Source: Halorubrum persicum
GTDB lineage: Archaea; Halobacteriota; Halobacteria; Halobacteriales; Haloferacaceae
NCBI RefSeq assembly: GCF_002727125.1
Contig: NZ_NHOA01000084.1
Coordinates: forward strand, 62,001 to 126,000
Direction of reading: 5' to 3'
Length of the DNA: 64,000 nt
The position numbers and the translations under genes are program-made. Under the pieces are notes generated by a model. The model was not told where the DNA came from. It did no database searches and saw nothing but the letters and a program-made list of their open reading frames with translations. Positions 59,904 through 64,000 of this stretch are shown in pieces (positions within the stretch are counted from its first letter, which is position 1; every line of letters starts with the position of its first letter).

Positions 59904-60920
59904 CTATCCGACGACCCGGTTGACGTCGAGCGCGGTCGCGCGCCGGACGACCGCCTCCACCGGGTCGACCGAGTCGGCCAGATTGTCCGACGCGCCGTCG
60001 AGGACGAGGAGCGACGCCCGGCGGCCGGGCGCGATGACGCCGCAGTCGAGCCCCGCGATCTCGGCCCCGGCGGCGGTGGCCATCCGCAACACCTCGCGGG
60101 CGGTCACGTCGAACCGCGTCGCCGTGTACGCCATCTCGCGGAACATCGACGGCACGTTCAACATCACGTTGTCGGTGCCGAGCGCGACCGTCGTGTGTTC
60201 GAGCAGGTCCCGGATCGGCGCGTCGCCGACGCCGAGGACGGTGTTCGCGCGGGGACACACCGCGATCGGGACCGACTGGTCCGCGACGCGTTCGAGGTGC
60301 TCCCGCTCCGCGTGCACCATGTGAACGAGCAGGTCCGGGTCCAGGTCGAGCGCCGGGTGGATGTCGGTCGCGTCCGGTTCGCCCGCGTGGATGGCGAAGG
60401 GAACCCCGCGGTCGGCGCACGCGGCGCGTTGGTCCGCGAACTCGTTGTCGTTCGCCCCCGACGCGCCGTATCCGTCGGCGACGTCGAGGACGGCGGCGTC
60501 GTCGCTCCCGAAGATGAACGGGTCGACGGCGACCGATGAGGCGGCCTCGCGGAGCGCCCGCGCCCCGTACACGCCGTTCTCGCGGAAGTCGAGACACGAG
60601 ACCGTTCCGGTCTGTCGCATGAACCGAAGGGTTCGCCGCATCGCCGCCACGAGGTCGGCGCGATCGGCGGCCGCCAGCCGCCGGTGTTTGCGGCTGTCCG
60701 GCGGGGCCACCGCCTCGTCGAGCGACAGCCCGACGGCGGCGTCCTTCGCCACGGAGTCGCCGAGGTGCGTGTGGGCGTTGACGAACGCCGGCAGGACGAT
60801 GTCCGTCGACTCGGTGTCGGCCTCCTCGATCGCCTCGATCCGACCGTCCTCGACGACGAGGCGGCCGCGGATCGGCTCGAACGACTCCCCGGCGAGGATC
60901 GTCCCCGTGACTTCCTCCAT
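59904..60920 (-). CDS. Amidohydrolase (cytosine/adenosine deaminase-type)
   Basis: A 338-residue metal-dependent TIM-barrel hydrolase. The metal motif AHTHLGDS is near residue 50 (HxH), FAIHAGEP near 200 gives the next His, LVHMVHAE near 223 the third, and GTDNVML the catalytic Asp. Overall layout resembles cytosine deaminase/TRZ-ATZ hydrolases. A GTTACC/CATATC stretch lies about 27 nt upstream. Substrate (pyrimidine, guanine or s-triazine-like) cannot be fixed. Confidence 0.87.
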   Translation of the reverse strand: MEEVTGTILAGESFEPIRGRLVVEDGRIEAIEEADTESTDIVLPAFVNAHTHLGDSVAKDAAVGLSLDEAVAPPDSRKHRRLAAADRADLVAAMRRTLRFMRQTGTVSCLDFRENGVYGARALREAASSVAVDPFIFGSDDAAVLDVADGYGASGANDNEFADQRAACADRGVPFAIHAGEPDATDIHPALDLDPDLLVHMVHAEREHLERVADQSVPIAVCPRANTVLGVGDAPIRDLLEHTTVALGTDNVMLNVPSMFREMAYTATRFDVTAREVLRMATAAGAEIAGLDCGVIAPGRRASLLVLDGASDNLADSVDPVEAVVRRATALDVNRVVG

Positions 60921-61283
60921 ACGGGCACACCGGGGCCGGTAACGATATGGTTTTCTGAACGCGCACATCGAACGACTCGGTAATTATCTCCCCCTTCCGG
61001 TGCCGGGTCGCCGCGGCAGACGGACCGGCCCGGAGCGGGACCGACGGTGAGACACCTCTCAGCGCGCGGTCGATCCGCGGAACGAGAAACGGAAACGGAG
61101 CGGCTGACGCTCCCGACCTCGAATCCATAATGTTTTATAATGTTCTATTACCCACCGTATTTCGAACGTTTTGTGAGTATAGATAGATTTAATAGACAAT
61201 CTGTTCTTTACTGTGAGCGAAGACGACCAGTCCCGGTCCGGCGGCGCGCGTCGGCACCGCGGGACGGTCGGACGGACTGAACG
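60921..61283. other. Intergenic region and dab promoter
   Basis: About 360 bp without a convincing gene. Two copies of ATAATGTT (61127-61134 and 61137-61144) lie one helical turn apart in an AT-rich patch, followed by GATTTAATAGAC (about 61186-61197), the best TATA box. This predicts transcription near 61213, where a GTG opens an 80-codon frame overlapping the dabB start. The GTG frame is shifted from dabB, so the leader may affect dabB translation. Confidence 0.4.
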
Positions 61284-62749
61284 ATGGCAGGATCCACCTC
61301 GAAACCGACGGTCGGAGCGCTTCCGGACACGGCGGCGGAGTCGCCGTACGTGCCCGCCGCACTCACGCTGCTCATGTGGTCGCTGTTCGCCACGAGCGTT
61401 GCGGTCCTCTTCGCGCGAGTCCGATTCGGCTTCGCTCCGGAGATTCCCGGCGTGATCGCCGTCGACGGACTGACCGTCCTGATGTGGGTGGTCGTCGCCT
61501 TCTTCGGCGGGATCGTCCTCAGCTACTCCCGCCGCTACATGGCGGGGAGCGCCCACGAGACGACGTTCTTCCTCGCCGTGTTCGGGTTCGCGGCGACCGT
61601 GATGACGCTCGTCGCCGCCGACCACCTCGCCCTGTTCGGGCTGCTGTGGCTGGCGATGGGGCTGGTGATGGCGACGCTGATCGGCATCGTCAGCGAGTGG
61701 GAGCAGGCGCAGGCGGCCGCGGCGGTCGCCCGGCGGTACTTCGTCGCGAGCAGCGCGCTCCTCGGCGTCGCGCTGGCGGCGCTCTGGTGGGCGACCGGCG
61801 CGACGACGATCTCCGGGGTCGCGGCGGCCGCCGGGACGCTCGGCGGTCCGGTCTGGCTCGTCGCCGCCGCCGCGCTCGTCCTCGCGGCGATGATCCAATC
61901 GGCGCTCGTCCCGTTCCACGGCTGGCTGCTCTCGTCGATGACCGCCCCCACGCCGGCGGCGTCTTGCTGGTCCGCTTCGCCCCGGTCGTCACGGTCAGCG
62001 AGGCCCTCATGCTCGCGATCGTCGCGGTCGGTGCGACCAGCGCGCTGCTCGGAAAGCTCCTCAAATCCGTCCGCCCCGACGTGAAGAGCAAGCTCGGCTG
62101 CTCGACGGTCGGACAGATGGGGTTCATGATCATGCAGGCCGGGCTCGGGTTCTTCGGAGCGGCCCTCACCCACCTCATCCTGCACGGGTTTTACAAGGCC
62201 TACCAGTTCCTCAGCTCGGGCGCACAGGTCGAGCGGACGACCCCGGACAAAAAGGCGGGCCGCTCGGCGGACGGCTCCGCCGTCGCCGCCGTCGCCGCGA
62301 CCCTGGCGACCGGACTGGCGGGCGGCGCGGTGTTCGTCCTGCTAACCGGGAAGGGGACGAGCGTCGACAGCGGCCTCCTGCTCGTCCTGTTCGTCGTGTT
62401 CACCACCCTCCACGCGGCGCGCGGCGCGGTGGGGCGGTCGTCGCTCCCGGCGACGGTTCGCTACGGGGCGGTGCCGCTGGTGTTCCTCCCGGCCATCGCG
62501 CTGTACGCGCTCGTGTACCGTGGCGTCTCGGCGGCTCTGACCGGCGTCCCGGTCGTCACGGCGCCGACGGAGCTGACCGCGCTCCACGGCCTCGTGGCCG
62601 TCGCCTTCCTCGGCACGTACGTCGCGATCGAGGCGGGCGTCCACGAGCGGAGCCGGCGGCTGTACGTCGCGCTCCTGAACGCGAGCCAACCCTCGCCCGG
62701 CACCCTGCTGACGAACGCTGAAGAGTACGACGACGGAGGCGCCCAATGA
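61284..62749 (+). pseudogene. dabB: DabB-like proton-channel subunit of DAB inorganic-carbon pump, frameshifted
   Basis: A NuoL/MrpA-type membrane protein beside dabA. The first frame (from 61284) gives about 222 residues with NADH-dehydrogenase-like helices and reaches SSMTAPTP. The second frame continues GGVLLVRFAPVVTVSEALML through KSKLGCSTVGQMGFM to the stop at 62749. At the junction (61950-61958) the conserved SALxHAGxxN segment expected between TPx and AGG is missing and the frame changes. The pattern matches a 37-nt deletion between two copies of ACGCCGG. The protein should be truncated unless this is a sequencing error. Its stop overlaps the dabA ATG as ATGA. Confidence 0.85.
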
Positions 62750-64000
62750 GCACCCAAACCACCATCGAAGACGGTATCGACGACGCGGCGGCGACGGTCG
62801 GGTCGGTCTGGCCGATCCACTCGTTCGTGACCGCCAACCCCCTCTCGGGGTTCGAAGACCTGCCGTTCGGCGAGGCGGTGACGCAGGCCGCCGACCTGCT
62901 TGGCGGCCGCGGCTACCCGAGCCGCGAGGCGTTCCGGGCGGCGCTCGACGACGGCCGGATCGACCCGGACGCGCTCGAATCGGAACTCGCCGACCGCGGC
63001 TACGAGGCCGATCCGGCGACCCTGCTCGAACGCATCGACACGAGCGTCGAGTCGGAGCCGACGGACGACGGCACCGACGCCGAGCGCGTCGACCGCGTGC
63101 TGTCGAAGTGGCTGTCCGCCTTCCTCGACGAGGGCCACGCCAAGTGGTCGATGCCGGACCGCGACGACGGGTTCTACGCCGCCTTCAGGGAGGTCGCCCC
63201 GCACGACGCCGAGGTCCCCGATTCGGGGGTCGTCGCGTCGCTGCCCGCGGACCCGATCGAGGCCATCGAGGCCGCCCTGGAGCCGTACCCGGAGGGGCAG
63301 TGGGTGCCCGTCTTCGAAGAGCAGCTGGCGGCGCTCCCGGGGTGGACCGGACTCATCAAGCAGCGCGCGGACGACGAGGGGGCGTGGCAGTCGGCGTGCC
63401 CGATCACGCTCACGGAGTACCTCGCGGTCCGCCTCGCGCTCCTCGACGGGGTCGGCGTCGACCTCGAGCCGTCCACGGGGCCCGACGCTCCCGGCACCGA
63501 CTCGTCCGACGAGCTCGCCGAGGCGTTCCTGAGCGCGTGGGAGGCGAGCTACCGGTCCGAGGTCGTCGAGCGCGTCGCCGCCGAGAGTCGGGAGCGGGCC
63601 AACAGCGAGCCGTCGGGTCGCCCCGACGCGCAGCTGGTGTTCTGTATCGACACCCGCTCGGAGGTGATCCGCCGGCACATCGAGGCCGCGGGCGCGTACG
63701 AGACCCACGGCTACGCCGGCTTCTTCGGCGTCCCGATGGAGTATCGGGGGTACGACGCGGCGGCTCCGGTCGACGCCTGCCCGCCCATCGTCGACGCGGA
63801 ACACCGCATCAGCGAGGTTCCGACCGACGATGACACGCGGGAGCGTCACGACCGGTGGTCGAGCGTCCGCGAGGTCGCGGGCGAGGTCGTCGCGAAGCTG
63901 AAGGCGAACCCCGCCAGCGCCTTCGGCTTCGTCGAGAACGCCGGGAGCGGCTACGGGCTGGCGCTCGCGGCGCGCACGCTCGTCCCCGGTCGCGTCCGCG
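62746..64000 (+). CDS. dabA: DabA (DUF2309) carbonic anhydrase-like subunit of DAB pump, 3' truncated
   Basis: The first 418 codons of a DUF2309 (UPF0753) protein, running off the window. DabA binds zinc in a beta-carbonic anhydrase-like site and hydrates CO2 vectorially, driven by the DabB cation channel. FCIDTRSEVIRRH at 299-311 supplies the first Cys300-Asp302 ligand/catalytic pair with Arg304; the remaining His and Cys ligands lie beyond the end. N-terminal elements VWPIHSFVTANPLSGF and YETHGYAGFFGVP are typical. ATG at 62746 overlaps the dabB stop. The dabA portion seen is intact. Confidence 0.92.
   Translation, partial: MSTQTTIEDGIDDAAATVGSVWPIHSFVTANPLSGFEDLPFGEAVTQAADLLGGRGYPSREAFRAALDDGRIDPDALESELADRGYEADPATLLERIDTSVESEPTDDGTDAERVDRVLSKWLSAFLDEGHAKWSMPDRDDGFYAAFREVAPHDAEVPDSGVVASLPADPIEAIEAALEPYPEGQWVPVFEEQLAALPGWTGLIKQRADDEGAWQSACPITLTEYLAVRLALLDGVGVDLEPSTGPDAPGTDSSDELAEAFLSAWEASYRSEVVERVAAESRERANSEPSGRPDAQLVFCIDTRSEVIRRHIEAAGAYETHGYAGFFGVPMEYRGYDAAAPVDACPPIVDAEHRISEVPTDDDTRERHDRWSSVREVAGEVVAKLKANPASAFGFVENAGSGYGLALAARTLVPGRVR

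Follow-up and report, generated by a model that had tools for sequence, protein, structure and literature searches.

Likely recent inactivation of dabB by a 37-nt deletion between short direct repeats in a Halorubrum lineage

Introduction

Does Halorubrum persicum still encode a working DabB, the proton-channel subunit in the membrane half of the CO2-uptake complex DAB (DabA/DabB), and if not, how and how recently was it lost? The question is raised by one locus in a stretch of 64,000 nucleotides (the window, meaning the whole stretch of DNA that was analysed), in which the reading frame of dabB is broken next to a whole dabA. A first-pass annotation had proposed that a microhomology deletion of 37 nt inactivated dabB, that DabA is intact and that the pump was recently lost. 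From the analysis described here, we consider it highly probable that dabB in this Halorubrum lineage became inactive recently, through the loss of 37 nt between short direct repeats. A single pseudogene of a known gene is an ordinary case of recent gene loss. This one would show cleanly how a heterotrophic archaeon begins to lose its CO2-uptake system.

Layout of the dab locus

The locus contains the following features.

61284..61955, + strand: dabB 5' piece, 224 codons, ending in APTP; PF00662 and the first part of PF00361
61950..61958, + strand: deletion junction ACGCCGGCG, the single remaining copy of a short direct repeat, where 37 nt of the relatives are absent
61952..62749, + strand: dabB 3' piece in a shifted frame, 265 codons plus stop; PF00361 positions 127-226
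62746..64000, running past the window end, + strand: dabA, intact, 811 codons in all, with an ATGA overlap with dabB
59904..60968, - strand: divergent neighbour of the amidohydrolase family, context only; it identifies the matching chromosomal site in G001, a related Halorubrum species that has lost dab

The identification of the gene as dabB is supported by its matches to PF00361 and PF00662, by Halothiobacillus neapolitanus DabB2 (9rd0_B) as the best solved relative, and by the adjoining dabA. Frame 1 from 61284 ends with the residues ...LLSSMTAPTP (GWLLSSMTAPTP) at 61955, and the homologous reading restarts one frame over at 61952, as AGGVLLVRFAPVVTV, and reaches its stop at 62747-62749. 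This places the frame break at 61950-61958, as had been proposed. When dabB is read from its start codon, the 5' piece is followed by nonsense residues up to a stop codon at 62082-62084. The 3' piece is open and carries no further lesions.

The dabA product matches PF10070 along its full length and has equivalents of Cys351, Asp353, His524 and Cys539, the described zinc site of DabA (PMC13144422), their positions being computed from a sequence alignment. DabA is accordingly intact, in agreement with the earlier claim.

A 37-nt deletion within dabB

We compared the locus with 80 named haloarchaeal dabB loci (L031-L110) and 29 whole-genome loci (L002-L030), the genomes of which partly overlap. 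In these relatives, the end of the 5' piece is separated from the start of the 3' piece by exactly 33 nt in frame, encoding ASALMHAGFVN. This spacing was seen in all of L002-L030 and in every named locus but one (79 of 80); the exception, L050, has 36 nt only since its match to the 5' piece ends one codon early. In the window, the two pieces overlap by 4 nt, and therefore 37 nt are missing. The DNA alignment likewise shows a clean 37-nt gap at the junction, with no inserted bases.

In all 80 named loci, the frame stays open through the site and the motif SALMHAGFVNAG is kept, and the missing segment is present in all 80 named and 29 whole-genome loci, none of which carries the junction of the window. 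The deletion in dabB is thus confirmed as a real observation, and so are the earlier statements that 37 nt and the conserved SALxHAGxxN segment are absent.

Junction repeat and origin of the deletion

How were the 37 nt lost? In the proposed mechanism, replication slippage or short-homology repair between short direct repeats would have deleted 37 nt and left one of the repeats behind at the junction. Perfect copies of the 9-nt junction repeat ACGCCGGCG lie 37 nt apart, at this very site, in 5 of the 80 named relatives, where the Asn-Ala codons are AACGCC; a junction repeat of at least 7 nt is present in 12 of the 80. The seven closest species use GCG for this Ala, and their repeat matches over 4 nt exactly, or over 9 nt with a single mismatch. 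Because the exact match there is only 4 nt long, the strength of the microhomology depends on the Ala codon of the ancestor: with GCC as the lost codon, the ancestral repeat would have been perfect over 9 nt, and with any other it would have been imperfect.

The short exact match in the closest species is what favours a different origin, in which the gene is truly broken but the repeat played no part in the loss of the 37 nt, as in transposon excision or random end joining. Against it, a random 37-nt deletion in dabB would have junction homology of at least 4 nt at just 2-3% of positions; for homology of at least 9 nt, the share falls to about 1% (this same site) or to zero. The perfect repeat at distance 37 in several relatives and the clean gap also argue against a loss of this kind, which we regard as unlikely. 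On the other hand, about ten repeats of 9 nt or more, within 200 nt, occur in the full-length dabB of each relative, which makes the deletion site a favoured one but not a unique one. A likely, but not proven, origin of the deletion is accordingly slippage or short-homology repair. The earlier interpretation is supported overall, though its repeat, given as ACGCCGG (7 nt), is better stated as the 9-nt ACGCCGGCG.

Genome context and age of the loss

The genome is a draft of 3.58 Mb in 158 contigs, 97.65% complete, and encodes one DabA and one split dabB. Neither a second dabA or dabB nor a copy with the intact motif was found across its contigs, so there is no backup copy at a second dab locus, for which the first-pass annotation had advised a search; the intact-motif pattern used as a probe matches 109 of 122 fetched loci. 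In a codon-usage Viterbi scan of the 64 kb, only at dabB did one long coding segment pass into another on the same strand, in a different frame, without a stop, and no other clear split genes were seen in the window. A generally error-rich assembly is thus not supported.

Branch dN/dS was estimated by a simple Nei-Gojobori triplet count with L040-L042 as outgroups, so that the values are approximate. It is not raised in the 3' piece (0.21-0.33 in the window vs 0.26-0.56 in relatives) or in dabA (0.36-0.45 vs 0.29-0.52), and at most mildly raised in the 5' piece (0.42-0.65 vs 0.29-0.79). Selection on the dabB pieces and dabA shows little or no relaxation. A long-standing pseudogene was rejected, considering that there is no second lesion and that dN/dS of the 3' piece and dabA is not raised.

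Near-normal dN/dS and the lack of a second stop or indel indicate that the loss is recent, as was claimed earlier, or that it is an artefact. These same observations would be equally expected if the gene were intact in nature and the deletion were an assembly artefact, a minority variant or a mutation of the laboratory culture, the species itself having a working dabB. The 158-contig draft also leaves room for this explanation, and a single scan of named genomes turned up no further genome of the species. However, assembly graphs do not collapse at repeats as short as 9 nt, the intact motif lies on no other contig, the window has no other clear frame break, and a 37-nt loss does not resemble a homopolymer-type error. 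We consider such an origin unlikely, and we infer that the deletion sits in the organism rather than in the assembly.

Consequences for the complex

In the alignment with DabB2, Ser256 and His260 pair with the serine and histidine of SALMHAG, which are deleted in the window. This Ser/His pair is present in 80 of 80 named relatives. In DabB2, both residues belong to a proton path that is also found in NuoL, and an alanine at either position significantly impairs DAB2 activity (PMC13144422). Since the pair is deleted, we consider dabB of the window to be a pseudogene and not a working DabB. The intact H. salsamenti query retains the tested residues further downstream (Lys310, Ser316, His339, His343 and Lys347), and the stretch equivalent to Lys310-Lys347 is encoded by the 3' piece of the window only; neither piece therefore has the full proton path.

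That a shortened 5' product or an internally started 3' product still works with DabA, or that the frame is recovered in translation, might be suggested by the near-normal evolution of both pieces and dabA, but it is very improbable, considering that the 12-residue segment is kept in every relative, that the proton path is divided as described, and that frame recovery could not rescue dabB because its product would still be without the two residues needed in DabB2 and the protein is truncated at 62084. Inactivation of dabB by the deletion is thus the reading that we retain, and the DAB complex of the window is predicted from sequence to be non-functional. The machine itself is better named a proton-motive-force-driven CO2-hydrating complex than a plain pump.

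The effect may extend to dabA. In haloarchaea and bacteria, adjoining genes that overlap in ATGA are translationally coupled (PMC6728339, PMC10666635). With dabB broken, this coupling to dabA would be broken as well and dabA translation would fall; the output of DabA is probably reduced too.

Other dab loci in relatives

In G001 (L121:3936-4340, G001:C5, minus strand), dabB is gone and a short N-terminal stretch of dabA is fused in frame to about the last 110 residues. The scar adjoins the same divergent amidohydrolase gene as in the window. As judged from these remains, G001 is an independent, more advanced dab loss at the same chromosomal place. Split or remnant DabA matches were also observed in three other genomes of the order, G285, G088 and G310, and are possibly further decaying dab loci. 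G069 was rejected as a second remnant, its locus being masked sequence (2433 N) and not a loss. Another Halorubrum genome, G015, has two separate full-length dabA genes, on contigs C8 and C11.

Carbonic anhydrase and the distribution of DAB

The genome of the window encodes one beta-carbonic anhydrase (beta-CA) with the zinc-ligand motifs CSDSR and HTGC. Carbonic anhydrase is interchangeable with MpsAB, the DAB of staphylococci (PMC6689103, PMC8552792). The remaining beta-CA would then have made the loss of dab tolerable, and it may make DAB dispensable here.

At the level of the order, we used 292 genomes of at least 95% completeness. Beta-CA is missing from 25 of them, 24 of which have DabA; DabA is missing from 118, with beta-CA present in 117. 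Five genomes lacking carbonic anhydrase were identified by comparing the DabA and beta-CA lists. The pattern gives a Fisher p = 2.7e-5, not corrected for phylogeny and with gamma-CA not counted. At the genus level, a missing beta-CA and the presence of dabA showed no significant link (11/11 vs 33/41, p = 0.18). One genome among the 292, G043, appears to be without both.

Almost every sampled haloarchaeal genome thus keeps at least one of DabA and beta-CA, which provides a testable rule. Tentatively, it is possible that in haloarchaea, DAB and beta-CA are interchangeable supplies of inorganic carbon and that DAB is repeatedly lost where beta-CA stays, the window representing the first step, with dabB broken and dabA whole.

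Comparison with known systems

In sequence and in its PF00361 and PF00662 matches, dabB of the window resembles H. neapolitanus DabB2 (PDB 9rd0 chain B) and Haloferax volcanii HVO_2411, as it does in the dabB-dabA order with an ATGA overlap and in the conserved proton-path residues downstream of the lesion. Unlike them, it is without 12 residues, including the S256 and H260 equivalents, and its frame is broken. DabA is full length and keeps the equivalents of Cys351, Asp353, His524 and Cys539, like H. neapolitanus DabA2 (9rd0 chain A) and HVO_2410 (PF10070), but its genome encodes no intact DabB partner for it.

With staphylococcal MpsAB, the dab genes of the window share the same two-gene system and the functional overlap with beta-CA (PMC6689103, PMC8552792). 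They differ in that MpsAB and carbonic anhydrase rarely occur together in Firmicutes, whereas DAB and beta-CA often do so in Halorubrum, and in that dab is the broken one in the genome of the window.
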